The notes under the pieces: generated by a model | The model's database searches: none | The model's input: the letters and a program-made list of their open reading frames with translations, nothing else | Told to the model about the DNA's origin: nothing | NCBI RefSeq assembly: GCF_002954765.1 | Contig: NZ_MTPW01000001.1 | Location: 1,687,501-1,751,500 of the forward strand | DNA: 64,000 nucleotides | Source: Nonlabens arenilitoris | GTDB lineage: Bacteria > Bacteroidota > Bacteroidia > Flavobacteriales > Flavobacteriaceae | Direction of reading: 5' to 3' | Made by a program: the position numbers and the translations under genes | Shown here: piece by piece, positions 47,691 to 63,775 of the stretch | Numbering within the stretch: the stretch's first letter is position 1 | Layout of the letters: each line of letters starts with the position of its first letter

Positions 47691-47782
47691 TGCTTTATTA
47701 AGGTGTGTGTTTAAAATAAATTTCAATCAACCTAACAGATGATATCCAAAACTTGTGAGGTGTGGCAGATTAATAAAGTTGT

Positions 47783-50140
47783 ATGAAAAAAATAATAATT
47801 ATCCTCATCGCAATTACCGCAATAAGATGTGGTGAAAAAGAAGAAAAGAATATAGGTGATAATAGACCTAGTATTATCGAGGCAATGACTACGCCTATTT
47901 ATTCATCTACATCGGGAACAGAAGTATACACTTCAGATTATTTACTGGATGTTAATCAATTAGATAGTATCACTTATGGTAAAGGTATTCTGTTTAATGA
48001 GGATACTCGCAATTATAATGAGCCATTAAAAATAAAAATGGACTCTGTGGCGCCATATGTTTCTCATGTGACCTTATGGACTGATGGTGTGCGCAATGAT
48101 ATTCCTGTTTTTAAAAGTAGTTCTAGAGAGATGACTATTGTTTACAAAAGCACCTCAAAAAATGTCAAACTTAAAGGCGAGTTCACAAACTGGTCTACGG
48201 TTGATTTAATAGAAGAGAATGGTCAATTGGTTTATAAAGCAACGATACCACAAGGGAAGTTTCAATACATTTTTGTTGAAAATGGAAAAGAAGAAAAGTT
48301 GACCGGTAGTGAGCCTCAAGTAATCAGTAACGGTATGGGAGGTTTTAATAGAGTTATAGACAACTCAAGAATGGCTGCTCCTGCACAATTATCCTATGGT
48401 GAAATATTAGCAAATGGTTTCACATTTACCACTACTGGAGCACTTGAAAATATTGTGGTGCTCTACGAAAACCAAATGATAAGTGCTTCTCAAAACGGTA
48501 ATTCATATACTGTAGAGCTGCCAGAAAAGGATTTTACAAACCGTAATTCTCAAACACAATTAGTAAGAGTCTATGCCAGTGATGAAAATGGTCGTACAAA
48601 TGATTTGTTAGTACCTGTACAAGATGGAAATGTCGTTCAAGATCCATCGCAATTAGCACGATCTGATTTTCACAATCAGGTATTATATTTTATGATGGTG
48701 GACCGTTTTCTAGATGGAGATCCTTCAAATACAAAACCAGTTCCTGATCCAGAAATTTTACCTAAAGCAAATTACATGGGTGGAGATCTTGCTGGTGTAC
48801 TCGCAAAAATAAAAGACGGTTATTTTGAGGAATTAGGAATTAACACGATCTGGTTATCGCCTATAACGCAAAACCCAGAAGGTGCTTATGGACTGTGGCC
48901 TGAGCCGCGCACTAAATTTAGCGGTTACCATGGCTACTGGCCTATTTCAAATACTGAAATTGATTATCGTTTTGGTGATGAACAATTATTTAAGGAGATC
49001 ATAGAACAAGCTCACAATCGAGATATGAATGTCATTTTAGATTATGTAGCAAATCATGTTCATGAAGAGCATCCACTATACAAAGAACATCCAGATTGGG
49101 CGACAAATCTTTATCTAGAAGATGGTAGTTTGAACACGGAGCGATGGGACGACCAGCGATTAACAACCTGGTTTGATACCTTTATGCCTACCCTAGATTT
49201 CTCAAAACCTGAGGTTGTTGCGAAAATGACAGACTCTGCACTATATTGGGTGACTAATTATGAATTGGACGGTTTCCGTCACGATGCTACTAAACATGTA
49301 CCAGAAGTATACTGGAGAACATTAACTAAAAAAGTGCGTAGCAATACCGATCGCCCTATTTATCAGATAGGTGAAACTTATGGATCTTATGATTTAATAC
49401 GCAGTTATGTAAGTACAGGAATGTTAGATGCACAATTTGATTTTAATCAGTATGATGCTGCTGTTTCCGCTTTCGCGAAAGCGGATGGCGACTTCTCTAA
49501 TCTGGCAGAAACACTTTTTAAAGGTCTAGAATACTATGGGCACCATCACCTGATGGGTAATATCTCTGGAAACCAAGATCGAGCGCGATTTATAAGCTAT
49601 GCCAGTGGCGATGTTTCTTTTGAAGAAGATGCTAAAAAAGCTGGATGGACTCGCGAGATAGGCATGAGTGATACAAAAGCCTTTGATAGGTTGGGTATGT
49701 TACAAGCATTTAATATGACTGTTCCTGGAGTGCCTGTAATTTATTACGGTGATGAATACGGTAGTATAGGTGCAAATGATCCTGACAATCGTAAGATGAT
49801 GAAGTTTGATGGTTTATCACAGCGCGAGTTGGATCTCAGAGAGCTCGTGCACGAATTAGTACAATTAAGACGTAACTCTATGTCATTACTTTATGGGACA
49901 ACTCAAATATTGAGTGATAGTAATGGGATGTTTGTTCTAGAACGATCTTACTTTGGAGAGAAGACGACGGTTTATTTTAATGAAAACGCCATATTACTCA
50001 ATGTTTTTACTAAATCTGATAATTCTGATATGGTAGATGTGCAACACCTTAATGCTGTTGAGACTAATAAAAAAATCCAAGTGAAACCACGTAACTTTGC
50101 GATTATACAAACCAAATTAAAAGAATCAACACAAGAATAA
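47783..50140 (+). CDS. GH13 alpha-amylase family lipoprotein
   Basis: 785 residues with a short lipoprotein signal (MKKIIIILIAITAIRCGEKEE, Cys near residue 16). An N-terminal beta/CBM-like region (KLKGEFTNW) spans about 110-200. The GH13 barrel begins near residue 300 (LYFMMVDRFLDGDPSN). Catalytic residues are Asp501 (DGFRHDAT), Glu531 (QIGETYG) and Asp599 (SGNQDRARF). The last motif has Gln598 where most GH13 enzymes have His. The palindrome copy at 49469-49482 encodes AFAKA inside the barrel. It is co-directional with the flanking GH13 genes, 6 bases before the next. It likely degrades maltodextrins at the membrane. Confidence 0.9.
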   Translation: MKKIIIILIAITAIRCGEKEEKNIGDNRPSIIEAMTTPIYSSTSGTEVYTSDYLLDVNQLDSITYGKGILFNEDTRNYNEPLKIKMDSVAPYVSHVTLWTDGVRNDIPVFKSSSREMTIVYKSTSKNVKLKGEFTNWSTVDLIEENGQLVYKATIPQGKFQYIFVENGKEEKLTGSEPQVISNGMGGFNRVIDNSRMAAPAQLSYGEILANGFTFTTTGALENIVVLYENQMISASQNGNSYTVELPEKDFTNRNSQTQLVRVYASDENGRTNDLLVPVQDGNVVQDPSQLARSDFHNQVLYFMMVDRFLDGDPSNTKPVPDPEILPKANYMGGDLAGVLAKIKDGYFEELGINTIWLSPITQNPEGAYGLWPEPRTKFSGYHGYWPISNTEIDYRFGDEQLFKEIIEQAHNRDMNVILDYVANHVHEEHPLYKEHPDWATNLYLEDGSLNTERWDDQRLTTWFDTFMPTLDFSKPEVVAKMTDSALYWVTNYELDGFRHDATKHVPEVYWRTLTKKVRSNTDRPIYQIGETYGSYDLIRSYVSTGMLDAQFDFNQYDAAVSAFAKADGDFSNLAETLFKGLEYYGHHHLMGNISGNQDRARFISYASGDVSFEEDAKKAGWTREIGMSDTKAFDRLGMLQAFNMTVPGVPVIYYGDEYGSIGANDPDNRKMMKFDGLSQRELDLRELVHELVQLRRNSMSLLYGTTQILSDSNGMFVLERSYFGEKTTVYFNENAILLNVFTKSDNSDMVDVQHLNAVETNKKIQVKPRNFAIIQTKLKESTQE
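49469..49482. repeat. Iterated palindrome copy (inside GH13 barrel)
   Basis: Exact GCTTTCGCGAAAGC in coding sequence, read as SAFAKADG. Confidence 0.9.
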
Positions 50141-50146
50141 TTATCT

Positions 50147-51589
50147 ATGAAAAAATCAACATCAAAATGGCTTATTGTATTATTTGCCGCCATGACCTTA
50201 TTCTCTTGTAAAGAAGCTCTTAAAGACCATGATGAGGTGATAGAAGATGAGATTTCTAGTACTTACTCACCTATTACTAATGAAGACCTAGAAAGTGCCG
50301 TTATTTACGAGGCAAACATTAGACAGTATTCTGAAAAAGGTACTTTCAATGAGTTTACTAAAGATATACCAGAGCTTAAAAAACTAGGAGTGAAAGTAAT
50401 TTGGTTGATGCCTATTTTTCCTATTTCTGAAAAGAATAGAAAAGCAAAAGGCGATTTAATGGTTGACGATATTAAAGACCCTAAAGAACGTGCGAAATAT
50501 TTAGGAAGTTACTATGCCGTTGCAGATTATGAAAAGATTAATCCTGACTTAGGCACAGAGGCTGATTTAAATCGATTGATAGAAACGGCTCATGAAAATG
50601 GTATGTATGTGATACTAGATTGGGTTGCAAATCATACAGGATGGGATAATCTATGGATTGAGAAATATCCAGATTTTTATACTAAAGATGAGAAAGGAAA
50701 TATTATTCATCCCAAAGGAACTGATTGGACTGATACTGCAGACTTAAATTATGATAATAAAAAATTATGGGATGCCATGTCTTCATCAATGATATATTGG
50801 GTTGACACATTTAATGTTGACGGTTTCCGCTGTGATGTTGCTCATGAGGTTCCTACTGAGTTTTGGAACTATGCTGTGAAGTCTATTAGAGATGTAAAGC
50901 CAGTATTTATGCTTGCAGAAAGTGAAAAGAAAGATCTTTTTATAGATGCTTTTGACATGGGATATAATTGGGAAGGCCACCATATAATGAATGAATTAGC
51001 ACAAGGTAAAACAAATGTGAATACCTGGGATGAGTATATGATAAGAGTAGAAGAGAATTATCAACCAGATGATATTTTAATGAATTTTATCACAAATCAC
51101 GATGAGAATTCATGGAATGGTAGTGTGACAGAAAGAATGGGAGAAGCTAGTGATGCTATGTTGGCATTGCAATATGTGATTCCAGGTATGCCGCTTATTT
51201 ATTCAGGGCAGGAATATGGTATGACAGAACGTTTAAAGTTTTTTGAAAAAGATCAAATACCACATGAGAAAGGAAAAGTGTGGAACATGATGGAGAAGCT
51301 GGGAACATTAAAAGCTAATAATCCAGCATTGCACGGTGGTAAAGATGCGGCTTCATATAAGCGTATTAATACATCTGAAGATTCAAAAATATATGCTATT
51401 GAAAGACAGAAAGATGATCATAAGGTGATTTATGTAGCAAATTTCTCAAGTGAATCTGTTGAGTTTAAAGCGCCTACTATAGTCGGTAAAATGACTGATG
51501 CTGTGAGAGGATCAGAATCTAACATTCCTGAAAATTATACGTTTACATTTCCACCATACGGTTATAGGGTATGGGAAGTACGTAAATAA
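50147..51589 (+). CDS. GH13 alpha-amylase lipoprotein
   Basis: 480 residues with a lipobox (TLFSCKEAL) after MKKSTSKWLIVLFAAM. It is a compact GH13 catalytic domain: DWVANHTGWD, nucleophile Asp230 (DGFRCDVAHE), acid/base Glu258 (LAESEKK) and Asp319 (FITNHDENSWNG). A short C-terminal beta domain follows. It lacks carbohydrate-binding modules. It lies 6 bases after the previous GH13 gene and is followed by a terminator that ends the rightward maltodextrin unit. Confidence 0.92.
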   Translation: MKKSTSKWLIVLFAAMTLFSCKEALKDHDEVIEDEISSTYSPITNEDLESAVIYEANIRQYSEKGTFNEFTKDIPELKKLGVKVIWLMPIFPISEKNRKAKGDLMVDDIKDPKERAKYLGSYYAVADYEKINPDLGTEADLNRLIETAHENGMYVILDWVANHTGWDNLWIEKYPDFYTKDEKGNIIHPKGTDWTDTADLNYDNKKLWDAMSSSMIYWVDTFNVDGFRCDVAHEVPTEFWNYAVKSIRDVKPVFMLAESEKKDLFIDAFDMGYNWEGHHIMNELAQGKTNVNTWDEYMIRVEENYQPDDILMNFITNHDENSWNGSVTERMGEASDAMLALQYVIPGMPLIYSGQEYGMTERLKFFEKDQIPHEKGKVWNMMEKLGTLKANNPALHGGKDAASYKRINTSEDSKIYAIERQKDDHKVIYVANFSSESVEFKAPTIVGKMTDAVRGSESNIPENYTFTFPPYGYRVWEVRK

Positions 51590-51682: not shown

Positions 51683-52018
51683 ATGAACAAGACCTATTAC
51701 GATCCTAAGGATCTTAGAAAATTTGGAAAAATTACAGAGTGGAGTGAAGAATTGGGAACAAAGTTTTTTGATTATTATGGCCAAGTTTTTGAAGAAGGAG
51801 AATTAACTGCTCGAGAAAAATCATTAATAGCACTTGCTGTTTCACACGCCGTGCATTGCCCGTATTGTATTGATGCTTATACAGGAGATGCGCTTAAAAG
51901 AGGAATCACTAAAGGTGAAATGATGGAGGCAGTCCACGTTGCCGGTGCAATTCAAGCCGGTGCAACACTGGTACATGGAGTGCAAATGATGAATAAGGTT
52001 AATAAATTAGAGATGTAA
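51683..52018 (+). CDS. AhpD/carboxymuconolactone decarboxylase-like protein of arsenosugar clusters
   Basis: 111 residues with the AhpD-like redox motif HCPYC (Cys59, Cys62) followed by a helical DAYTGDALKRGITKGEMMEAVHVA. Small proteins of this type are a regular neighbour of ArsS and are annotated as arsenosugar-biosynthesis-associated peroxidase-like proteins. The exact reaction is unknown. It precedes arsS by 208 bases on the same strand, so a promoter may lie between. Confidence 0.85.
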   Translation: MNKTYYDPKDLRKFGKITEWSEELGTKFFDYYGQVFEEGELTAREKSLIALAVSHAVHCPYCIDAYTGDALKRGITKGEMMEAVHVAGAIQAGATLVHGVQMMNKVNKLEM

Positions 52019-52179
52019 GGAAATACCTTTCTATTTTTAATGGGTTGAGTTAATCTGGTAATTTAAAAGGAATGAGTATTGTAAATTATTCCTTAAAACT
52101 CATATATATTTCCTATTGATTTGTACTTATGCAGCGATAGTGACAGTTTTGTGAGATTTTCTGACTACATATGCAAAAC

Positions 52180-52198
52180 CGTAGTTTCATATACTACG
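52180..52198. repeat. Small inverted repeat before arsS
   Basis: CGTAGT (52180-52185) and ACTACG (52193-52198) form an inverted repeat with a 7-base spacer, about 29 bases upstream of the ArsS start. It could be a regulator site. Confidence 0.4.
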
Positions 52199-52226
52199 TA
52201 ATTAAATAAAAAAGGGACCATAATTT

Positions 52227-53294
52227 ATGGCTGTAAATACAAAGACCTCTTTAAAGAAGAGAGATTCCGACTTAGCAAATATCAATAAGCAGATGGCTAT
52301 TCTTAATGGAGAGCCTTTTTCTAATGGAGAGCTACCATCATTTGCAAAAAAAATAAAAGATACTACTGACCAGTTTCCTCTACGACCTAAAAAGCTTGAG
52401 ATTATCCAGGTAAACGTAGGTTATATGTGTAATCAGGTTTGTGCTCACTGCCATGTAGATGCAGGACCAGATCGTAAAGAAATTATGACTCGCGATACTA
52501 TGGACAAAATCGTTGAGGTCATTAAAACCACTGGAGCACACACATTAGATTTAACTGGTGGCGCTCCAGAGATGAATCCTGATTTTAGATATTTTGTAGA
52601 ACAAGCAAGTGCCGCAGGTATTAAAGATTTTATTGTACGCTCTAATTTAACCATCATAAGAGCAAACCCTAAATATCACGACCTACCAGATTTCTTTAAA
52701 AAACATAATATTCATGTGGTAAGCTCTATGCCTCACTGGACCAGAGGAAAAACAGATACACAACGTGGTGATGGTGTTTTTGATAAGTCTATAAAGGCTT
52801 TGCAAGAATTAAATGATCGTGGATATGGAATGCCAGGTAGTGATTTAAGACTAGATCTAGTATATAATCCTAGTGGTGCTTATCTGCCGGGTGATCAAGC
52901 GAGTATGGAAAAGGACATGAAAGCTGCATTATTAGAGGATTTTAATATTCAATTTCATAACCTTTTTGCAATTACTAATTTACCTATTGCTAGATTCTTA
53001 GATTATCTAGTGGCTAGTGAAAATTATGAGGATTATATGTATGCATTAGTTGATGCTTACAATCCTGCCGCAGTAGAAAATGTAATGTGTACTAATACCA
53101 TCTCAATCTCATGGGATGGCTGGTTATATGATTGTGATTTCAATCAAATGCTTGATTTAAAAATCGATAATAAAATCCAACATATTGATGATTACAATGA
53201 GGATTTAATTAATAATAGAAAAATTCAAATTTCTCAACACTGTTACGGATGTACCGCTGGTGCAGGTAGTAGTTGTCAAGGTGTTGTTGCATAA
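52227..53294 (+). CDS. arsS: ArsS-type radical SAM enzyme (arsenosugar biosynthesis)
   Basis: 355 residues. The radical SAM cluster motif CNQVCAHC (Cys68, Cys72, Cys75) lies in NVGYMCNQVCAHCHVDAGP, and the SAM-binding GGAPEMNP motif follows. The C-terminal DUF3641 region carries more cysteines (DCDFNQM, HCYGCTAGAGSSC), suggesting an auxiliary cluster. ArsS is known to couple a 5'-deoxyadenosyl group to dimethylarsenite-type arsenic, giving arsenosugar precursors. The assignment rests on the motif set and on the neighbouring AhpD-like and DUF2064 genes. No arsM is seen in the window. Confidence 0.92.
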   Translation: MAVNTKTSLKKRDSDLANINKQMAILNGEPFSNGELPSFAKKIKDTTDQFPLRPKKLEIIQVNVGYMCNQVCAHCHVDAGPDRKEIMTRDTMDKIVEVIKTTGAHTLDLTGGAPEMNPDFRYFVEQASAAGIKDFIVRSNLTIIRANPKYHDLPDFFKKHNIHVVSSMPHWTRGKTDTQRGDGVFDKSIKALQELNDRGYGMPGSDLRLDLVYNPSGAYLPGDQASMEKDMKAALLEDFNIQFHNLFAITNLPIARFLDYLVASENYEDYMYALVDAYNPAAVENVMCTNTISISWDGWLYDCDFNQMLDLKIDNKIQHIDDYNEDLINNRKIQISQHCYGCTAGAGSSCQGVVA

Positions 53295-53295
53295 T

Positions 53296-53981
53296 ATGAT
53301 TGATAGATATTCAAAAACTGCCATTTTACTTTTTGCCCAGTCGGCAAGAGTAGATGCTATCAGTAAATCACTGGTAGACGTTGCGGTGATGGATGTTTTA
53401 AATAATCATGTTCTTAAAACAGTACGCAATTCTGGGCTTGATTATTATCATTTTACAGAAAAAGAACAACGCGGCGAAAGCTTTGGTTCAAGGTTTAAAA
53501 ACTCTATAGAAGATGTTTTCAAACTAGGTTATACATCGGTAATTTGTATCGGAAACGATACGCCATTACTATCTGTTGATTTAATTCATAAAGCAGCAAA
53601 CTCTCTATTCAAAGAAAATTCTGTTTTGGGTAAATCACAAGACGGTGGTTTATATTTAATAGGGTTAAACCGTTCACAATTTCAAGCGCAGACCTTTGAG
53701 AACCTACCATGGCAATCAAGTCAACTGTCTATTTTTTTAATCAATATTTAAAAAACTTTGATGGAAGTGTAACGGTTCTTAAAACCCTTCAAGATATTGA
53801 TTCAACGACAGACTTATATCAGTTCCTCGCTGGTAAAGATGCTCGTGATTTATTAATAGGAATATTGTTAAATACGCTTTCGCGTAAGCGTAATAACCAC
53901 AAGCAATCTACATTTTACAATAAACAGGTATTTCTTTTTCAACCTGCAAATAAAGGCTCGCCAGTACAGATAGCGGCTTAA
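53296..53981 (+). pseudogene. DUF2064/TIGR04282-type glycosyltransferase, broken by a one-base frameshift
   Basis: The start is the ATG at 53296, one base after the ArsS stop; the longer version from 53260 is only overlap. The first part (MIDRYSKTAILLFAQSARV ... CIGNDTPLLSVDLI ... LGKSQDGGLYLIGL) matches the rSAM/selenodomain-associated transferase 1 family. It runs out of frame at a run of seven Ts (53732-53738). The rest (FNQYLKNFDGSVTVLKTLQDIDSTTDLYQFL) continues in another frame to 53981. Adding one T restores one protein of about 228 residues. It would glycosylate the arsenical made by ArsS. Either a homopolymer error or a real mutation. Confidence 0.8.
53876..53889. repeat. Variant palindrome copy (inside glycosyltransferase gene)
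   Basis: GCTTTCGCGTAAGC, one base different from the consensus, read as LSRKR. Confidence 0.75.
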
Positions 53982-54026
53982 TTTTTTATTACCCTATCTG
54001 GGTGTTTTTCAACTTTATTTATTTTC

Positions 54027-57000
54027 ATGAAAAGAATTACTCTATTCATGTTGTTTCTATGTGGTTTAATAGGGACAGCACAATTTACTATTACAGGAAC
54101 CGTTACAGATCATACGGGAGAACCTGTCGCATTTGCAAACGTTGCAGAGCAAGGAACACGCAATGGTACTACAACCTCGTCAAAAGGAACATATATAATC
54201 ACTGTACAAGAAAATGCGGTGGTTACCTTTTCTTTTATAGGTTATGAATCTTACAGTGTAAAAGTCATAAGTTCTCAAACAATTGATGTAATACTACAAG
54301 AAGGTGACTCTCTAGATCAAATAGTAGTCACTGCACTAGGTGTAAAAAGACAAGAACGAGAGCTAGGATATGCGGTGCAAACGCTGGATGCAGACCAAAT
54401 AGAAGAAGTCAAAGCCGTTAATTTGCTGGATAACCTAGCTGGTAAAATCGCTGGTATTTCAGTAACGCAAGGTGCGACTGGAGTAGGTTCTTCTTCAAAA
54501 ATCACTATACGTGGCGAGGCTAGTTTTTCAAACAATAATCCGTTATTTATTGTGGATGGAACGCCAGTAAATAATAATACCGTTTTTAATTTTACAAACG
54601 AGGCCGCAGCTGGATTTCAAGAAGTTGATTTCGGGAATGGCGCAGGAGAATTAAACCAAGATGATATAGCAAGTGTATCTGTTTTAAAAGGACCAGCGGC
54701 AGCAGCGCTTTATGGAACTAGAGCATCTAATGGTGCAATCATTATTGAAACTAAAAATGGAGGAAAAAAGAAAGGATTAGGAATATCTTATAACACGAGT
54801 TTCTTTGTAGACACAGCTTTTCAATTACCACAATTCCAAAACGAGTATGGGCAAGGAAATAGCGGTCAGTTTGAATATGTTGACGGACTAGGTGGCGGAA
54901 TTAATGATAACATTACCTATTCATGGGGACCAAGATTAGACGCCGGTATTAACATTGCCCAATTTGATAGTCCAGTCACATTACCAGATGGTACCGTTGT
55001 GCGTGGTGGTGATACAGCACTTTATAATGGGTTATCAATCACTCCTACTGCTTTTAAAAGCAATCCAGATAACTTGAAGAATTTCTATGAAACTGGTCAC
55101 ACTTTTATTAATAATATTGCGGTCTCAAATGGCTTTGAAAAAGGAGATTATCGTTTTAGTTTTACAGATTTACGTAGCGAAAGCATTATTCCTGGAGTTA
55201 ATTTAGACAGGCAAAGTGTAGCTGCAAAGCTCAACTTTACACCTAGTGATAAAACAGCCATCCGCACTAGTATCAATTATGTAAATAGTGCATCTGACAA
55301 TAGACCGTCAAATGGTTATGGAAGTGAAAATGTAAATTATTCACTAGTCGCATGGGGACCACGATCTTTAAATATTGATAATTTAAGAAACTACTGGCAA
55401 CCAGGCCTTGAAGGTGTACAGCAGTATTCATTTAATTATACTTTTTTTGACAATCCTTATTTTATATTGAACGAGAATCGCAACAGTTTTGGTCGTGATC
55501 GTTTGTATGGGAATGTTTCTTTGACTCAAGAGTTAACGTCAGAGTTGACAGCTACTGTAAGAACTGGAATGGACTATAGTAATGAAAAGCGTCGTTTCTT
55601 AAGGTCATATTCTACAAACAGATTTAGAAACGGTGCCTATGCAGAGCATGACGTGACTTACCGAGAAATCAATACAGACTTCTTACTGAATTATAAAAAT
55701 CAGTTTGACGATATCACATTTGACGCTAGTATTGGTGGAAATAGATTGAGTCAAAAGGCCTCAACTACACAGGCTCAAACGACTAGTCTTGCACAACCAG
55801 GTATTTTTTCTTTAAATAATGCCGCTAGCCCTATTGAAAGTTTTGGTTTCCGTTCAGAGAAGAGAATTAATAGTTTATACGCTTACGCGAAAGCAGGCTA
55901 CAAAAACTTCCTGTATCTAGACATTACTGCTCGTAACGATTGGTCCAGCGCTCTAGCTACACCTTTTACAGCAGATAATACTTCATTCTTCTACCCATCA
56001 GTATCGACTAGTTTTATATTGAGTAACATAGTAGACTTACCTAAAGTTATCGATTTTGCAAAAATCAGAGCCAGTTATGCACAAGTAGGAAATGATACAG
56101 ATCCTTATCAAACCCAAGGAACTTTTATATCACAAACACCTGTAAATGCACAACCTACTTTTACAAATCAAGATTTTATCCCTAATCAGAATTTAAGACC
56201 CGAAACGACTTCTAGTGTTGAATTAGGGTTTGATATGCGATTCTTAAAGCAACGATTGAATGTAGATTTTACCTATTACAATGCTGTAACATCAGATCAG
56301 ATACTTTCTTTACCTATCGGGATCTCTTCAGGTTTTAGTCAGCAAGTAGTAAATGCAGGATCTGTTAGAAATACAGGTGTTGAGGTTGTTTTAAATGCGA
56401 TTCCTGTGCGTACTGATGACTTTCAGTGGAGCTCAACAGTAAACTTTGCGACTAATCGAGCAATTGTTGAGGATTTACCACAGGATGAAGGACGTTTAAC
56501 ACTAGCCTATTCAAGAGTATATGATAGTCAAGATCAAACAGTCTGGCATCAAGTTGAAGAAGGTGGCCGTATAGGTGACCTTTATGGAACTGGTTATTTA
56601 CGTAATGAAAATGGAGATTTTGTTCTTACGGCAGATGGTCGTTTTATCGCAGATCCGGAGTTGAAAAAGCTAGGAAACTATAATGCAGATTTTACGATGG
56701 GATTCAATAACAGTTTTACTTATAAAAACTGGGACGCATCTTTTTTACTGGACTGGAGACAAGGAGGAATTTTAGTTTCTAGAACTCTCGCTCTAGCTGC
56801 AGTAGGTGGACAGCTAGAAGAAACAGCTAATAGACCGGATGCCGGAATAGTTGCAAATGGTGTGGTAAACACGGGAACAGCAGCAAATCCGGTTTATGTT
56901 CAAAATACGACCGCAGTAAGTGCTGAGAGTTATTACCGTCAGTTCTATGATCGTAATCACGAAGAAAATAATGTATATGATGCGAGCTATTTAAAGCTGC

Positions 57001-57236
57001 GTCAGTTCTCTATTGGGTATTCTTTTGATTTAAATAAAGGTGCTTTAGGTCTATTTAATGGTGGTGCAGAAATGAGAGTTTCTCTAATAGGGAGAAACTT
57101 GTTTGCAATCTCAGAAATTCCTCATTTTGATCCAGAGCAACTTGCAGTGCAAGGTCAGGGATTTGTCAGTGGTGTAGAAGATATGTCATATGCATCTACC
57201 AGAAGTATAGGAATTAAAGCAGGAATCCAATTCTAA
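54027..57236 (+). CDS. SusC/RagA TonB-dependent outer-membrane transporter, second system
   Basis: 1069 residues, somewhat longer than the first SusC. The signal peptide ends LIGTAQ. A carboxypeptidase-like domain (FTITGTVTDHTGEPVAFANV) precedes the plug with LFIVDGTPVNNN and ALYGTRASNGAIIIETKNGG. The barrel ends GIKAGIQF. It is only 45 bases after the glycosyltransferase remnant and co-directional with arsS, and no glycoside hydrolase is next to it. The substrate is therefore unlikely to be an ordinary polysaccharide; an organo-arsenic compound or nucleoside-like molecule is my inference. A variant palindrome lies at 55881. Confidence 0.95.
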   Translation: MKRITLFMLFLCGLIGTAQFTITGTVTDHTGEPVAFANVAEQGTRNGTTTSSKGTYIITVQENAVVTFSFIGYESYSVKVISSQTIDVILQEGDSLDQIVVTALGVKRQERELGYAVQTLDADQIEEVKAVNLLDNLAGKIAGISVTQGATGVGSSSKITIRGEASFSNNNPLFIVDGTPVNNNTVFNFTNEAAAGFQEVDFGNGAGELNQDDIASVSVLKGPAAAALYGTRASNGAIIIETKNGGKKKGLGISYNTSFFVDTAFQLPQFQNEYGQGNSGQFEYVDGLGGGINDNITYSWGPRLDAGINIAQFDSPVTLPDGTVVRGGDTALYNGLSITPTAFKSNPDNLKNFYETGHTFINNIAVSNGFEKGDYRFSFTDLRSESIIPGVNLDRQSVAAKLNFTPSDKTAIRTSINYVNSASDNRPSNGYGSENVNYSLVAWGPRSLNIDNLRNYWQPGLEGVQQYSFNYTFFDNPYFILNENRNSFGRDRLYGNVSLTQELTSELTATVRTGMDYSNEKRRFLRSYSTNRFRNGAYAEHDVTYREINTDFLLNYKNQFDDITFDASIGGNRLSQKASTTQAQTTSLAQPGIFSLNNAASPIESFGFRSEKRINSLYAYAKAGYKNFLYLDITARNDWSSALATPFTADNTSFFYPSVSTSFILSNIVDLPKVIDFAKIRASYAQVGNDTDPYQTQGTFISQTPVNAQPTFTNQDFIPNQNLRPETTSSVELGFDMRFLKQRLNVDFTYYNAVTSDQILSLPIGISSGFSQQVVNAGSVRNTGVEVVLNAIPVRTDDFQWSSTVNFATNRAIVEDLPQDEGRLTLAYSRVYDSQDQTVWHQVEEGGRIGDLYGTGYLRNENGDFVLTADGRFIADPELKKLGNYNADFTMGFNNSFTYKNWDASFLLDWRQGGILVSRTLALAAVGGQLEETANRPDAGIVANGVVNTGTAANPVYVQNTTAVSAESYYRQFYDRNHEENNVYDASYLKLRQFSIGYSFDLNKGALGLFNGGAEMRVSLIGRNLFAISEIPHFDPEQLAVQGQGFVSGVEDMSYASTRSIGIKAGIQF
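55881..55894. repeat. Variant palindrome copy (inside second susC)
   Basis: GCTTACGCGAAAGC, one base off; it is the reverse complement of the variant at 53876. Read as YAYAKAGY. Confidence 0.75.
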
Positions 57237-57276
57237 ATTTAAGTTGAACTTAAATTTTAATAGCAAAACACACATT

Positions 57277-58728
57277 ATGAAAAATATATTTATATACTAT
57301 TCTTTAATTACCTTCCTAAGTATAGGGATGACATCTTGTACAGCAGATTTTGAAGAAATAAATACTAATTCAAATGCACCAGTAACAGTACAACCTAGTT
57401 TATTGTTAAGGCAGGTCATTTATAATTATGGAGAAGAGATGTCTTATGAAGGTTTTGTCGCTGGTGGATTATTAGGCCAGCACATGACAGCGTTGGATTT
57501 TAATCTTTTTGATAGACATGCTTTAAAAAGTCCGCAATTAGGTGGTGATCCATGGCCTATTTTTTATCGTAATTTAAGAGATAATGAATTGATTATTAAT
57601 GAGTCTAGATCTAGTGAAGCTTTTAAGGTGTATGAAGGTCCAGCCTTAATCTTTAAAGCCTATATGACCGCAGCACTTACAGATATTTATGGAGATGTTC
57701 CTTATAGTGAAGCATTCCGTGGTTTAGATGGAATAGTTCAGCCTCAATATGATTTACAAGAAGACATATATCTTCAAGAAAATGGGATTTTGGATAATCT
57801 TGACAAAGGGATTGCAGCCATTGAAAATTATACAGGATCTATTGCTTTAGATGGTGATGTATTGTACAATGGCAATCTACAAGCTTGGGTAAGACTAGCA
57901 AATAGTCTTAAGATAAAGGCGCTAGTAAGAATCTCTGATAAAGAAAATATAAGCACTCGTTTACAAGAATTATATGATGATGGAAATTACATAGCAGACA
58001 ACACTCAAAATGCCATTTTTAACTTTACAGATAGTGAACCTAACAACTTCCGTATGGCACGATTGAGAGCTGGAGATTTCAATAATTTTGTGATGAGCGT
58101 GACGATGGAGGAAATCCTAGAAGGATTAAATGATGCGCGTATCGACATTCTTTTTAGACCTAGAGGAAATAATGGGAATGGCGATGATTATGAAGGATTG
58201 TTAAACGGTATTGACGCTTCATCAACCTCTGTAAGCCTTGCAGACTATTCACTGGCAGGAACCATTTTTAGAGAAAATACAGGAATGCTAGATGCAAATT
58301 ATATGACCGCTTGGGAAACCAACTTTTTACTTGCTGAAGCTGCTGAAAAAGGATTGATCACAGCACCTGCACAAACCTTATATGAAACTGCGGTAACTCA
58401 AGCCTTTGAATATTGGAATACAACATTGCCCGTGGATTATTTAACTACCACAGCCGCTTATGCCGCAAATGGAAATGATCCTATTGAGCAAATCATCACT
58501 CAAAAATGGATTGCGAGTCTTATTAATGGTTATGAAGGATGGATTGAATATAGAAGAACTGGTTTCCCAGTTTTAAAAAACATATCGGCTAGTTTAAATA
58601 ATAATTTAATACCGGTAAGAATGCCTTATCCTGCAGAAGAAGCAGCGCTCAATGCAGATAATTATAATGTTGCAGCTAGTGCGACTAATAATAACGATAT
58701 TAATGTGCCTGTGTGGTGGGATGAGTAG
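57277..58728 (+). CDS. SusD-like outer-membrane lipoprotein, second system
   Basis: 483 residues from the ATG at 57277, which directly opens a lipoprotein signal (MKNIFIYYSLITFLSIGMTSCTADFEE); the TTG at 57244 is less likely. It belongs to the SusD-like_2 group: helices such as FKAYMTAALTDIYGDVPYSEAF and the C-terminal ITQKWIASLINGYEGWIEYRRTGFP. It partners the SusC gene 41 bases upstream and would hold the ligand at the surface. Confidence 0.93.
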   Translation: MKNIFIYYSLITFLSIGMTSCTADFEEINTNSNAPVTVQPSLLLRQVIYNYGEEMSYEGFVAGGLLGQHMTALDFNLFDRHALKSPQLGGDPWPIFYRNLRDNELIINESRSSEAFKVYEGPALIFKAYMTAALTDIYGDVPYSEAFRGLDGIVQPQYDLQEDIYLQENGILDNLDKGIAAIENYTGSIALDGDVLYNGNLQAWVRLANSLKIKALVRISDKENISTRLQELYDDGNYIADNTQNAIFNFTDSEPNNFRMARLRAGDFNNFVMSVTMEEILEGLNDARIDILFRPRGNNGNGDDYEGLLNGIDASSTSVSLADYSLAGTIFRENTGMLDANYMTAWETNFLLAEAAEKGLITAPAQTLYETAVTQAFEYWNTTLPVDYLTTTAAYAANGNDPIEQIITQKWIASLINGYEGWIEYRRTGFPVLKNISASLNNNLIPVRMPYPAEEAALNADNYNVAASATNNNDINVPVWWDE

Positions 58729-58832
58729 ATAAAAATAAAAGTAACAGGAAAAACAAATAAAGAGCAAATGTCAGTTCGAGCAGAGTTGAAAATAGTTTAA
58801 TAGCATTTTTAAGTTTAAATCATATTCCAACA

Positions 58833-60179
58833 GTGGATTTTCTAACCCAAACATCAACCTTACAGTGGTTACTTATTATAGCGAGTAGTGTGATATTTTT
58901 CATATTGGCGCCATATGCTAAAGATGTAGAGACATTTTTTAAAGCACAGCATCGTGGTAAGAAACCTAGTATGGTAATGCTTACTGGTAGTTTGATCATC
59001 TCGTGGATTTTTGCAAAAAGCATTACTAATGCTGCAAATTTAGGACTGGCGTTTGGTCTAGTAGGTGGTGTGGCTTACGCTGGTTATTACCTGTCATTTG
59101 CGGTAGCAGGAATTGTAATTTATCAATTGAGAGTTCAAGGTGGATTTGAAAGCATCCATCATTTTTTGAGTTCTAAATTTGGTAAAAGTGCTGTAAATGT
59201 ATTCTCGATATTAATTAGTTTTAGACTATTTAATGAAGTCTGGTCTAACACGATGGTGATAGGAACCTATTTCGGTGACATGGGGACTACGGCTTATTAT
59301 GCCGCCATAATTGTATTTACATTGCTTACACTAGCTTACACTTTAAAAGGCGGACTGAGCAGCTCGATATTTACTGATGCGATACAAATAGTGTTATTCT
59401 CTATTTTACTGGTAATTATTTTGGGCGTTATTTTTACAGAACCAGATGTTCAGGTAGGGGAAATGTTTACTAGCGGAACTTGGTCTATGGAATTAGGTTT
59501 GAATTTATTTTTTGCGGCCATTTTGCAAAGTTTCAGCTATCCCTTTCACGATCCCGTGTTAACAGATCGTGGTTTTATTAGCTCGCCTAGAATTACTAGA
59601 AAAAGCTTTTTATGGGCAGCGGTTTTAGGGGCGATTTGCATTGTTCTTTTTAGTCTAGTAGGTGTGTATGCACAACAAGCTGGATTAGAAGGACAGGCAG
59701 CTGTTGAAGTGGCTAAAAAATTAGGTGTTGTCTTACTACTTATCATTAATTTTATAATGATTACTAGTGCAGCCAGTACCCTAGATAGTACATTTTCTAG
59801 TTTCTCAAAGATGCTTACTATCGATTTAAATTTGGGTAAAACGGTCAGTTTTGGTAGAATAATGATGGTTATTGTAGCCGTTTTAGGAACCATTCCTGTT
59901 TTTCTGGATGCAGAGATTTTAAGTGCCACAACGATTAGTGGTACAATGGTTATAGGACTCACGCCAGTATTTTTATTATGGAAAATGGACGCTCCTAAAA
60001 TTAGTTATTTCCTATCTGTCATCGCTGGATTGTTTTTTGGTGTATTATTGATTTTTGAGCTTTTTCCAGAACAACTCATTCATACCAGCGGTAAATATTC
60101 TTTATTACTATGGATTAATTTTTATGGTATAATCGTTAGTTTTATTCTCTTTTTAATTCCCACATGTTTCAAAAAGTAA
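58833..60179 (+). CDS. Sodium:solute symporter family protein
   Basis: 448 residues with about twelve or more hydrophobic segments and a GTG start at 58833. Features fit the SSS family: the sodium-site region near LTGSLIISWIFAKSITNAANLG, and SFSYPFHDPVLTDRGFISSP in the middle. It is expected to carry the substrate delivered by the SusCD pair across the inner membrane with sodium. The stop overlaps the start of the phosphoesterase gene by 16 bases. Confidence 0.88.
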   Translation: MDFLTQTSTLQWLLIIASSVIFFILAPYAKDVETFFKAQHRGKKPSMVMLTGSLIISWIFAKSITNAANLGLAFGLVGGVAYAGYYLSFAVAGIVIYQLRVQGGFESIHHFLSSKFGKSAVNVFSILISFRLFNEVWSNTMVIGTYFGDMGTTAYYAAIIVFTLLTLAYTLKGGLSSSIFTDAIQIVLFSILLVIILGVIFTEPDVQVGEMFTSGTWSMELGLNLFFAAILQSFSYPFHDPVLTDRGFISSPRITRKSFLWAAVLGAICIVLFSLVGVYAQQAGLEGQAAVEVAKKLGVVLLLIINFIMITSAASTLDSTFSSFSKMLTIDLNLGKTVSFGRIMMVIVAVLGTIPVFLDAEILSATTISGTMVIGLTPVFLLWKMDAPKISYFLSVIAGLFFGVLLIFELFPEQLIHTSGKYSLLLWINFYGIIVSFILFLIPTCFKK

Positions 60180-60988
60180 AAGATTTAGGTCATAAACGAG
60201 GTAAAATGCTCCTTTTTGGTGGCGTTTATAGTAATTTTCAAGCATTGGAAGCAGTGATGGCATTGGCTCGTTTGCACGATATAGAGCCAGAAAACTGTAT
60301 TTGTACCGGTGACATTATAGGTTACTGTGGTCAACCACAAGAAACTCTAGATACTTTTCAAGAGTGGAATCCATACAGCATTTTAGGTAATGTAGAAATT
60401 CAATTGCGTGATGATCAAGAAGATTGCGGTTGCGATTTTACAGAAGGTTCTCGTTGTGACGGATTTAGTGATGTTTGGTACGCTTTCGCGAAAGCGAACT
60501 TACACACCAACTCAAAAGATTATTTCAACACCTTACCAGATCACATCACTTTTGAATATGGTGGAAGAACTGTAGGAGTGGTGCATGGTAGCGCAGATTA
60601 TGTATCACAATTCATATTCAAGTCCAGCGATTGGGCAGAGAAAATAGAAAGTTACCAAGATCTAGTAGTAGACACTATCATAGCTGGTCATTGTGGATTG
60701 CCATTTAAAGATCAATATGAAAATTTATTATGGCTCAATCCAGGCGTGATAGGTATGCCTGCAAATGATGGAGTAACACACACATGGGCTATGATATTAA
60801 ATGATGAAGATGGTTTTGAAGCACGGCACATTCCAGTGGTTTATGATCATCAAACTGCGATTGTTCAAATGAACAAGCACAACTTGCCACAAGAATATGC
60901 ACTAACACTAGAAACTGGAATATGGGATAATATGGAAATCCTACCAGATGAGGAACGACTATTGCTAGGAAAACCACAAGCGTTTTAA
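60164..60988 (+). CDS. Metallophosphoesterase-like protein with altered metal motifs
   Basis: 274 residues, calcineurin-like layout (YfcE/MJ0936 type) but with key positions changed. The first motif reads GGVYSN (residues 19-24), where the usual form is SDIHSN, so both the Asp and His ligands are replaced. CTGDIIGY (Asp50) is kept. GNVE (75-78) replaces GNHE, and AGHCGLPF replaces GHTH. A cysteine cluster CGCDFTEGSRC (Cys88, Cys90, Cys98) is added. From memory, homologues share GG.YSN and the Cys cluster, so this is a family trait, not decay. A start at the internal ATG (60206) is possible. The palindrome copy at 60482 encodes AFAKA. Confidence 0.8.
   Translation: MFQKVKDLGHKRGKMLLFGGVYSNFQALEAVMALARLHDIEPENCICTGDIIGYCGQPQETLDTFQEWNPYSILGNVEIQLRDDQEDCGCDFTEGSRCDGFSDVWYAFAKANLHTNSKDYFNTLPDHITFEYGGRTVGVVHGSADYVSQFIFKSSDWAEKIESYQDLVVDTIIAGHCGLPFKDQYENLLWLNPGVIGMPANDGVTHTWAMILNDEDGFEARHIPVVYDHQTAIVQMNKHNLPQEYALTLETGIWDNMEILPDEERLLLGKPQAF
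60482..60495. repeat. Iterated palindrome copy (inside phosphoesterase gene)
   Basis: Exact GCTTTCGCGAAAGC, read as YAFAKAN. Confidence 0.9.
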
Positions 60989-60991
60989 TCT

Positions 60992-61474
60992 ATGAAAAAT
61001 CTAATCTTCTTCATATCATTTTTATCCATTTCTACCAGCATTCAAGCTCAAGAAATCAATGAATTATTACATCAATATAATAGGATGTCCGTGCCGTATA
61101 TCACGGTACAGACCTTAAAAATGGAATATGATCAATATATCATTTTGGACACTCGTAAAAAACCTGAGTATGAGGTAAGTCATTTACCTGGTGCCATTTG
61201 GGTAGGTGAAAAGTTAGATCTAGAGTTGATTGATGACATTTCTACAGATAAGCCTATCGTGGTTTACTGTTCAGTAGGTATACGTAGTGAAGATTATGGA
61301 GAGGAACTTCTCAACGCAGGTTTTGAAAACGTATATAATCTTTACGGTAGTATTTTCTCATGGAAAGATGCCGGATATAATGTGGTAGATCCAGAAGGTC
61401 ATGATACAGATCAAGTTCATGTATTTTCTAAAGCATGGGAGAAGTATTTAAAGACCGGTGAAAAGGTTTATTGA
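60992..61474 (+). CDS. Periplasmic rhodanese-like protein
   Basis: 160 residues with a signal peptide (MKNLIFFISFLSISTSIQAQ) and one rhodanese domain. The active-site loop is YCSVGIRSE with Cys93; ILDTRKKPEYEVSHLPGAIWVG precedes it. It could transfer sulfur or bind an oxyanion such as arsenate in the periplasm. It lies 3 bases after the phosphoesterase gene. A rhodanese near arsS recurs in this type of cluster as I remember it. Confidence 0.88.
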   Translation: MKNLIFFISFLSISTSIQAQEINELLHQYNRMSVPYITVQTLKMEYDQYIILDTRKKPEYEVSHLPGAIWVGEKLDLELIDDISTDKPIVVYCSVGIRSEDYGEELLNAGFENVYNLYGSIFSWKDAGYNVVDPEGHDTDQVHVFSKAWEKYLKTGEKVY

Positions 61475-61477
61475 TAG

Positions 61478-61945
61478 ATGAAAGAATCTATAGATTTAAT
61501 ATGGAAGACTATTAAAAACTATTATTGGCTGCTTATTATTCCCATAGTTGTGTTCTTTTATGTCGAATCTTTACAAGAAGAAAGAGAGCTTAATAAATTA
61601 TATAAATGTACTTATGCTCAGGTGATTCATTCTTCACCTGTTTACAAGAAATATAGTAAGCGTTCTTATCATTATGATTTTTTTGTAGAAGGGAGAAAGT
61701 ATGTAGGAAGTTCTAGTGCTTACATATCTGATGATATTAAAATAGGGAACTTCTATCAAGTGAAATTTGCTTCAAATAATCCTCGTAATAATAAAATTGA
61801 TTTTACAACTCAATACTATCAGATTATAAGCGGTTTTGAATCTGATAAAATAGACACCGCATATATCGATGTGTCAAAATATAAGGTTGATTCAGTAGAT
61901 TTAAAAAATCGATTAAATCGAGTGAAAGCATTAATTGAAAAGTAG
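61478..61945 (+). CDS. Single-pass membrane protein of unknown function
   Basis: 155 residues with one N-terminal hydrophobic helix (YYWLLIIPIVVFFYV) and a soluble domain with several strands (YDFFVEGRKYVGSSSAYI; FYQVKFASNNPRNNKIDF). This resembles DUF3592-like proteins, but I am not certain. It is 3 bases downstream of the rhodanese gene and closes the rightward run. The minus-strand terminator of metK follows. Confidence 0.7.
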   Translation: MKESIDLIWKTIKNYYWLLIIPIVVFFYVESLQEERELNKLYKCTYAQVIHSSPVYKKYSKRSYHYDFFVEGRKYVGSSSAYISDDIKIGNFYQVKFASNNPRNNKIDFTTQYYQIISGFESDKIDTAYIDVSKYKVDSVDLKNRLNRVKALIEK

Positions 61946-62015: not shown

Positions 62016-63272
62016 CTATAAAGAAAAAGCTTTCTTTACTTCGTCCACATAATCTAATTTTTCCCATGTGAATAACTCTACAGTCTTTTCTACACGACCA
62101 TTATACGGTGATTCAAAAACTAGTGTTTCTGTACGAGGCTCACGACCCATATGACCATAAGCAGCCGTTTCAGAATAGATAGGATTTCTTAGTTTTAATC
62201 TACTTTCTATCGCAGCAGGACGCATGTCAAAGATTTGAGCAACTTTTTTAGAGATTTCTCCATCGGTTAAATCTACAGTTGATGTCCCATAAGTATCTAC
62301 ATGTATAGAAGTAGGTTCTACCACACCTATTGCATAGGATACCTGTACTAGAACTTCAGTAGCAAGACCAGCGGCAACTAGGTTTTTTGCCACGTGACGT
62401 GAAGCATAAGCAGCACTACGATCTACCTTAGAAGGATCTTTACCCGAGAAAGCTCCACCACCATGAGCACCTTTACCACCATAAGTATCTACAATAATCT
62501 TACGACCGGTAAGTCCAGTATCTCCATGCGGTCCACCGATTACAAATTTTCCTGTTGGGTTAATGTGGTAAGTGATTTTGTCATTAAAGAGCTTTTGAGC
62601 ATATGCTGGTAATTGCTCGATAACTCTAGGGATTAAAATTTCAACAAGGTCTTTTTTAATCTGTGCTAGCATCGCATCATCATCTTCATTAAAAGGATCG
62701 TGCTGTGTAGAAATAACAATAGCATCTATACGTTGCGGTATGTTATCATCATTATACTCAATCGTTACTTGTGATTTTGCATCTGGACGCAAGTAGGTTA
62801 TCTGATCCATTTCACGACGCAATTTTGCTAGCTCGATAAGTATTTTATGAGAAATATCTAAGGCTAGTGGCATATAATTATCAGTCTCTGCCGTTGCATA
62901 ACCGAACATCATTCCTTGATCACCAGCACCTTGTTCCTCTTTATTCTCACGATCAACACCTTGATTAATATCTTGTGATTGTTCATGGATTAAAGAAATT
63001 ACACCACAAGAATCGCCGCTAAACTGGTAAGCACCTTTGGTATAACCTATCTTGTTAACCACTTCACGAGCAATGTGTTGTGCGTCTATATAGGTGTTTG
63101 ATTTTACCTCACCGGCAAGTATAACTTGACCAGTAGTCACCATAGTCTCACAGGCTACTTTAGATTCTGGATCAAAGGCTAAAAAATTATCTAATAAAGC
63201 GTCACTGATTTGATCAGCAACTTTATCTGGATGTCCTTCACTTACGGACTCACTTGTAAATAAATATGGCAT
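62016..63272 (-). CDS. metK: S-adenosylmethionine synthetase
   Basis: Makes SAM from methionine and ATP. 418 residues; starts at the ATG at 63272 ([25 protein letters not shown], with the conserved His/Asp). Other signatures are [12 protein letters not shown] and [19 protein letters not shown]. It is led by a leader of about 165 bases with a SAM-II-like riboswitch and its own promoter. It supplies SAM for the radical SAM enzyme ArsS encoded nearby, among many users. Confidence 0.97.
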
Positions 63273-63297: not shown

Positions 63298-63365
63298 GAA
63301 CTTAAAAATCGCTCTCGACATTAATAATTTTAGAAGATAAAAAGGGCTGTATGCTCGAGTGCGGT

Positions 63366-63431
63366 ACACTGTTTTAGCGTTTATGTTTTCTAATTTGAAA
63401 ACGAGGTCGCAAGCAGCCAAATCTTTCCCCT
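63366..63431 (-). ncRNA. SAM-II (SAM_alpha)-like riboswitch upstream of metK
   Basis: On the minus strand the core reads GATTTGGCTGCTTGC, then GACCTC, a hairpin (GTTTTC/GAAAAC), then ATAAACGCTAAAACAGT. This matches the SAM-II order as I know it: GAUUUG, CUUGC, an AUAAA-type stretch and GCUAAA. GGGG pairs with CCUC (P1) and GCUG pairs with CAGU (pseudoknot P2). Transcription from the -7 box at 63442-63449 would start just before it. Confidence 0.7.
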
Positions 63432-63441
63432 AATTGAAGTG

Positions 63442-63449: not shown

Positions 63450-63667
63450 ATAAAATGAGCGCTATGTGTGCATTGTTATTATAGCTTTATTAACTATTTC
63501 TATAGAGATTAATGATTGCTTTTAATTTTAACGTTTGATTTAAAAATATGTAATTCAGTTTGTTAGGTCTAATTCCTATTGTGTTAGTAGGAATTTATTT
63601 TTTAAAAAGTTTGGTAGTCTCAAAAAGTTTTATGAATCTTTACACTCACGTTCATAACCATATTGAA

Positions 63668-63775
63668 ATTATCAAGAAAGGACGAGGGAACAGACCCATC
63701 GACTCCTTAGCAACCCTTAACGCTCGTTAAGAAGGTGCTACATTCTGCCCATTAAATTGGGATGAGATGATACAC
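63668..63775 (+). ncRNA. SAM-I (S box) riboswitch upstream of metY
   Basis: Conserved SAM-I blocks appear in order: TATCAAGAAAGG, GAGGGA, CAGACCC, TTAGCAACC, AAGGTGCTACATTCTGCC and GGGATGAGATGATA. Helix P1 is TATCA (63670-63674) with TGATA (63768-63772). Confidence 0.93.

Follow-up and report, generated by a model that had tools for sequence, protein, structure and literature searches.

The window analysed here, a 64,000-nucleotide stretch of the genome of Nonlabens arenilitoris (contig NZ_MTPW01000001.1, positions 1,687,501 to 1,751,500; coordinates below are positions within the window), contains a set of arsenosugar biosynthesis genes into which a second group of genes, referred to below as the cassette, is inserted. 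The cassette consists of a divergent DUF2064 gene, susC, susD, a gene for a protein of the sodium/solute symporter (SSS) family and a gene for a metallophosphoesterase-like protein (MPE), and it lies beside arsS, the gene for a radical SAM enzyme that adenosylates arsenic. We are highly confident of a functional link between the cassette and the arsenosugar operon. Tens of other genomes contain the same set of genes, which is more than chance would produce. Genomes that carry the cassette frequently lack a detectable ArsM, the arsenic methylase of the pathway. The reading proposed here, which in our judgement is evenly poised between acceptance and rejection, is that the SusCD pair and the SSS protein bring in a methylated organoarsenical as the supply for ArsS.

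Conservation of the cassette beside arsS

The distribution of the cassette was determined in a main sample of 397 Flavobacteriaceae genomes, in which ArsS was accepted at a threshold of E 1e-60, SSS at E below 1e-100 and MPE, searched for with a profile built from 16 sequences, at E below 1e-110, the next matches lying at 4e-33. MPE was found in 51 of the 397 genomes and ArsS in 289, and every one of the 51 MPE genomes, referred to below as carriers, contains ArsS (Fisher p 3e-8; the Fisher tests reported here take no account of kinship). SSS was found in 52 genomes, which are the 51 carriers and one genome of the window's genus, G272, whose SSS relative (59%, locus L156) occurs without MPE and without ArsS at the threshold; its gene context could inform the substrate of the symporter. 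Gene neighbourhoods were read in stretches of 16.5-20 kb around each MPE gene, and around the 51 (window included) SSS is present in 51, ArsS in 50, susC together with susD in 48 and the DUF2064 gene in 47. In one genome, G117, the entire cassette lies 180 kb away from the operon.

A second sample, made up of 146 genomes from the genus to which a Polaribacter porphyrae genome belongs, contains SSS in 33 genomes, and the 33 corresponding regions contain MPE in 33 cases, susD in 32, susC in 31 and ArsS in 28; of the five regions without ArsS, one lies on an 11.6 kb contig. The Polaribacter homologues of the SSS protein (72-76% identity) were also considered as candidates for a symporter function outside arsenic metabolism, and this was rejected because the regions in which they occur hold the same cassette, mostly with arsS. 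An earlier note made from the window's letters alone, referred to here as the original prediction, had made its case depend on the SusCD and SSS genes being kept next to arsS in relatives, and they are: the genes share one stretch in 50 of the 51 carriers of the main sample and in 28 of the 33 regions of the second.

The arrangement of the cassette was examined in a third, non-random sample of 80 named loci, which are the best matches to the window ArsS (81 with the window). The cassette occurs in 14 of the 80, being placed after ArsS in 10 and before AhpD in L005, L012, L013 and L023, and its identity to the window in these 14 loci is 65-71% for susC, susD and SSS and 50-57% for MPE. Locus L063 holds SSS and MPE only, and the contig of L002, a Nonlabens metagenome-assembled genome (MAG), stops within susD. 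The closest named relatives in the searches are Nonlabens, with ArsS 97% identical in L002 and MPE 96% identical in a Nonlabens ulvanivorans entry. In L007, a Lacinutrix MAG in which no ArsM was detected, a susD-like remnant of 50 residues, located between ArsS and rhodanese (L007:2993-3142), suggests a decayed cassette.

The core operon is already known, and NCBIfam names several of its members as arsenosugar biosynthesis proteins. Its common order across the 80 loci is AhpD, ArsS, rhodanese, a TIGR04282 transferase, purine nucleoside phosphorylase (PNP), arsenosugar ArsM, an OlsE-like protein (below cut-off), a DUF547-type protein (named by eye) and a TIGR04283 transferase. The substrate of ArsS is the dimethylarsenic made by ArsM. 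In the window, the AhpD-like thiol protein (51683..52018; TIGR04169, 192 bits, cut-off 120), ArsS (52227..53294; TIGR04167, 428 bits, cut-off 300) and the rhodanese (60992..61474; NF045521, 195 bits, cut-off 145), whose N-terminus appears signal-like by eye, all exceed curated cut-offs, and relatives hold the whole cluster. The window differs from these clusters in carrying the inserted cassette, in having no ArsM that could be found in its genome (3.32 Mb, 99.96% complete) and in the location of PNP elsewhere in that genome. An excerpt of PMC12159101, a paper that cites Cheng et al. 2021 on ArsS, describes the adenosylation of arsenic by a radical SAM enzyme in oxo-arsenosugar biosynthesis.

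The genes of the window locus (51683-61474) are all on the + strand, and the same-strand set that the original prediction had listed, running from the AhpD-like protein through ArsS, DUF2064, SusC, SusD, SSS and MPE to the rhodanese, is present in full, with the DUF2064 gene split over two frames. As a correction to the short gaps described there, about 200 bases separate the AhpD-like gene from arsS. Proteins of 1037-1043 amino acids that resemble TonB receptors by eye are encoded near arsS in the cassette-free loci L016, L024, L037 and L062; this family has no NCBIfam match, and it is perhaps an alternative outer-membrane partner.

Absence of ArsM in carriers, kinship and selection

Arsenosugar ArsM (NF038099) was searched for at a threshold of E 1e-40, and a general ArsM model was run, to E 1e-15, on the 64 ArsS genomes without arsenosugar ArsM. 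The genome of the window has no arsenosugar ArsM (the best protein match is 35% over 115 residues), nor does it have a general ArsM at E 1e-15. Of the 51 carriers, 31 lack arsenosugar ArsM, as do 33 of the 238 other ArsS genomes (Fisher p 2e-11). A general ArsM scores over the cut-off in 18 of these 33 others but in only one of the 31 carriers, G151, where there is one stop inside the match; G183 and G378 have weak general matches under the cut-off. When the two types are taken together, ArsM is undetected in 30 of 51 carriers and in 15 of 238 other ArsS genomes (p 2e-16), and the corresponding counts among genomes at least 90% complete are 29 of 50 and 9 of 206 (p 3e-17).

The named loci show the same pattern. 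In 30 named genomes taken from the 80, comprising the full set of 16 that have a complete or partial cassette and 14 others, arsenosugar ArsM is missing in 9 of the 16 and in none of the 14 (p 0.0009). Among the other 50, all counted as cassette-free, it is absent from six, one of which is L007 with its susD-like remnant. Seventeen loci of ArsM-less carriers, the window included, were read gene by gene, and 11 of them hold PNP. The gene next to PNP in these 11 is OlsE-like or of the DUF547 type, except in L111 (an unassigned 387-aa protein), L123 (a 108-aa open reading frame (ORF)) and L102 (a 1001-aa gene, unrelated and on the opposite strand).

Five genomes have SSS and MPE without SusCD (G198, G151, G032 and those of L063 and L184), and all five have an ArsM match, which in G151 is the interrupted one of the general type. 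None of the five is thus ArsM-less, compared with 30 of 48 SusCD carriers (Fisher p 0.012), in a comparison that was made after seeing the data and that involves few genomes without SusCD, two of the five coming from other samples. In L028 (genome G436), ArsM is in two pieces, with a TGA within the match.

The effect of kinship was evaluated with tree tests that count arsenosugar ArsM only. A tree of ArsS with 115 rows requires a minimum of 23 changes of state for the cassette and 22 for ArsM absence, and when only supported branches are used there are 6 pairs, of which 3.3 are for the association and 0.1 against it (median p 0.25). On a second tree, built from ArsS and AhpD with 114 rows after L131 had been dropped as a long branch, there are 21 independent pairs with differing cassette state; on average, 10.1 of these link ArsM absence to the cassette, 0.24 point the other way and 10.6 show no difference. 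The median p for this test is 0.002 (range 0.0002-0.07), on a tree in which many branches are poorly supported.

Selection was assessed from dN/dS in 12 pairs, with synonymous sites saturated in several of them and some rows not computable. The values for ArsS in seven ArsM-less pairs are 0.019, 0.005, 0.020, 0.063, 0.023 and 0.007, with one pair saturated; in four ArsM-bearing pairs they are 0.027, 0.045 and 0.016, again with one saturated, and a mixed pair gives 0.037. SusC, SusD, SSS and MPE have dN/dS of 0.02-0.22 where it is computable and are also constrained. Decay of the pathway was accordingly rejected as an explanation: ArsS, SusC, SusD, SSS and MPE are not decaying, though the DUF2064 gene of the window is broken or carries a sequencing error. 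This gene, the first of the cassette (53260..53981, +; PF09837), is split across two frames, 53260-53751 and 53709-53981, whose overlap contains seven T in a row, and in the Nonlabens MAG L002 it is one frame of 228 amino acids. The frame break at 53709-53760, near the seven T, may be a true mutation, a slippage site or a sequencing error. The TIGR04282 score of the gene is 78.7 in the window and 93.3 in L002, both under the cut-off of 134.

The importer, the phosphoesterase-like protein and the flanking genes

The predicted TonB-linked outer-membrane channel SusC (54027..57236, +; TIGR04056, 591 bits) and the predicted surface lipoprotein lid SusD (57244..58728, +; PF12771, 291 bits, also PF12741) are encoded side by side, an arrangement which, with matches to TIGR04056 and PF12771, identifies a SusCD pair; the N-terminus of SusD resembles a lipoprotein signal by eye. 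The nearest solved chain to SusC is by far BT2264 of Bacteroides (422 bits, against 122 for the next), while the match of SusD to BT_2263 is weaker, at 46 bits, the best SusD match being 127 bits. The BT2263-BT2264 pair carries peptides. It differs from the window pair in its neighbours, which in the window are arsenosugar genes, SSS and MPE. The window pair also differs from those of glycan polysaccharide utilisation loci in that no glycoside hydrolases are kept with it. The original prediction had remarked on this absence, which extends beyond the window: in the 17 loci whose genes were gone through one at a time, none was recognised with SusCD, whether by eye or through matches to listed genes. 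Directly upstream of the locus, at 45888-51589, there are three genes that look GH13-like by eye, and relatives of two of them are at the same place in L002, but the upstream genes have matches in only 3-4 of the 81 loci.

The SSS protein (58833..60179, +) resembles SLC5-type symporters in having 11 hydrophobic segments, as determined by a hydrophobicity count used in place of membrane prediction, and in a match to Pfam SSF that lies just above the cut-off (23.9 against 22.8 bits). It also contains an A-S-T-L-D-S stretch. It is very divergent from these symporters, its TIGR00813 score of 32 bits being far under the cut-off of 184, and its best solved match, a choline transporter at E 3e-5, is too weak for naming the cargo.

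MPE (60164..60988, +; PF12850, 42 bits) has a calcineurin-like phosphoesterase fold, which was confirmed by a structural model and fold comparison. The D-x-H motif and the last H of G-H-x-H, which we take to be the site-1 ligands of a two-metal metallophosphoesterase, are kept in seven of seven distant relatives. In the cassette family none of the three site-1 metal ligands survives in any of the 105 MPE loci, a count in which some genomes appear twice, as a named and an unnamed copy. Five cysteines are invariant across the same 105 loci, and C45, C55 and C98 of the family are absent from the seven ordinary relatives. MPE thus differs from SapH-like small metallophosphoesterases, such as the Ap4A hydrolase 3qfm, both in the replaced ligands and in these cysteines, and it is probably not an ordinary two-metal enzyme, because the residues of site 1 are gone. 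By eye, no signal peptide is evident in MPE, which in 9 of the 51 carrier genomes is fused to the arsenosugar AhpD-like protein, the fusion being aligned in L005, L012 and L013.

Beyond the rhodanese, the last ORF (61478-61945, 155 aa) matches no family, and a tblastn search of the 81 loci gave no match to it. It is followed by a MetK-like gene (62016-63272, by eye), on whose strand there is a SAM-II riboswitch (63364-63436, -; 45.4 bits, cut-off 44), and a SAM-I riboswitch (63666-63773, +; 67.8 bits) lies about 230 bases from it on the opposite strand.

Possible cargoes of the importer

We infer the cargo, its flow through ArsS, the coupling to Na+ and a thiol role for MPE as parts of a single route, in which the cassette would be an uptake system for a methylated organoarsenical that has been added to the arsenosugar operon of Flavobacteriaceae. 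SusC and SusD would capture the compound at the outer membrane using TonB energy, and the SSS protein would move it into the cytoplasm with Na+. The cysteine-rich, degenerate MPE, together with its occasional fusion partner, the AhpD-like protein, may hold the cargo or reduce it to the trivalent dimethyl form, ArsS would then add the 5'-deoxyadenosyl group, and the phosphorylase and the transferases would complete the arsenosugar. ArsM would be dispensable, and would often be lost, because the arsenic would arrive already methylated; conversely, if ArsS acts as known, a cell that has ArsS without ArsM would need methylated arsenic from outside. Organoarsenical import had been suggested in the original prediction, and the suggestion is strengthened by the carriers in which ArsM is undetected; no specific evidence was found for the arsenolipid fragments or nucleoside-like precursors that had also been named.

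Several observations weigh against import of a methylated organoarsenical. SusCD systems usually carry cargo larger than dimethylarsinate, and no residue or structure evidence names an arsenical as the cargo. Four of the second sample's cassettes lack an ArsS gene over a distance of about 29 kb, and three of these adjoin PNP, transferase and ArsM. Arsenosugar ArsM is kept by 20 of the 51 carriers and is therefore not replaced by the cassette in every case, and 15 ArsS genomes have neither ArsM nor the cassette, six of them being under 90% complete. Finally, when the tree of ArsS and AhpD is restricted to supported branches there are 8 pairs, 4.5 for the association and 0.1 against it, and the median p of 0.125 is not significant; the direction of the association is consistent, and the strict test is short of power.

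Other cargoes must be weighed against the same data. It is possible, if unlikely, that the cassette imports finished arsenosugars or glycosides, either algal or the cell's own, which would be reworked by the transferases and the phosphorylase while ArsS has a separate or salvage role. Sugar and nucleoside enzymes usually adjoin the cassette, and the uptake of sialic acid by a SusCD-type pair, as described in an excerpt of PMC3969230, is a precedent for small-sugar cargo, but ArsS would be needless for finished arsenosugars and yet is constrained in ArsM-less carriers, and there is no glycosidase with the cassette among the genes read.

A link to phosphorus has its own precedent in the PusCD pairs of Flavobacterium, SusCD systems induced by phosphate depletion according to an excerpt of PMC8115612; these resemble the window pair in having no glycoside hydrolases and in lying near a phosphoesterase-type gene. 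The cassette might likewise scavenge organic phosphorus, standing beside an arsenate-detoxifying operon as phosphate starvation raises arsenate uptake, and ArsM might be lost as a result of lower arsenate influx. The fold of MPE would fit such a role, and a gene for a PiT-like transporter, which scores under the cut-offs of the named models, occurs in 7 of the 81 loci, including L022, and hints at a link to phosphate uptake. We nevertheless regard this explanation as distinctly unlikely, since the site-1 ligands of MPE are lost throughout the family and since ArsS would be left without a substrate, although its dN/dS is low in the absence of ArsM. MPE also lacks an evident signal peptide, in which it differs from the PusCD case, and the window SusD belongs to PF12771 and PF12741 whereas the two PusD proteins compared, PusD1 and PusD2, are given PF07980 and PF14322 in the excerpt of PMC8115612.

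A non-arsenical cargo, such as a cofactor, metal or peptide needed by the arsenosugar enzymes, with dimethylarsenic reaching ArsM-less carriers passively, would agree with BT2264, a member of a peptide-carrying pair, as the nearest solved chain to SusC and with the weakness of the choline transporter match, but it gives no reason to expect ArsM absence to track the cassette and is considered improbable. That the importer belongs by chance of neighbourhood to the upstream alpha-glucan-type genes, or to another nutrient locus, is scarcely credible despite the position of the GH13-like genes here and in L002, and coincidence was rejected in view of their rarity in the 81 loci and of the co-occurrence of SSS, MPE and ArsS in all 51 carriers.

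A broader and more tentative proposal, which we hold to be somewhat doubtful, is that these bacteria scavenge organic arsenic for use as a building block: methylated arsenic would be imported from algal surroundings, by a dedicated route of TonB/SusCD and Na+ symporter, for the synthesis of arsenosugars, and perhaps arsenolipids, a repurposed cysteine-rich phosphoesterase would handle the arsenical, and the synthesis would not be a detoxification of inorganic arsenic. To our knowledge, no dedicated outer-membrane importer for organoarsenicals is known, and none appeared among the matches listed from the open-licence literature of PubMed Central. Among the same matches, covered through titles and the starts of abstracts, no work was found that links SusCD with arsenosugars, and the presence of a SusCD-SSS-MPE cassette on the arsenosugar operon, its degenerate phosphoesterase and its association with the absence of ArsM were likewise not encountered. 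If import of a methylated organoarsenical is correct, SusCD systems carry arsenic compounds and marine flavobacteria recycle methylated arsenic. The question of why organisms make arsenosugars would then become testable, because the usual detoxification argument, in which ArsM acts and then ArsS, fails in carriers that have no ArsM.

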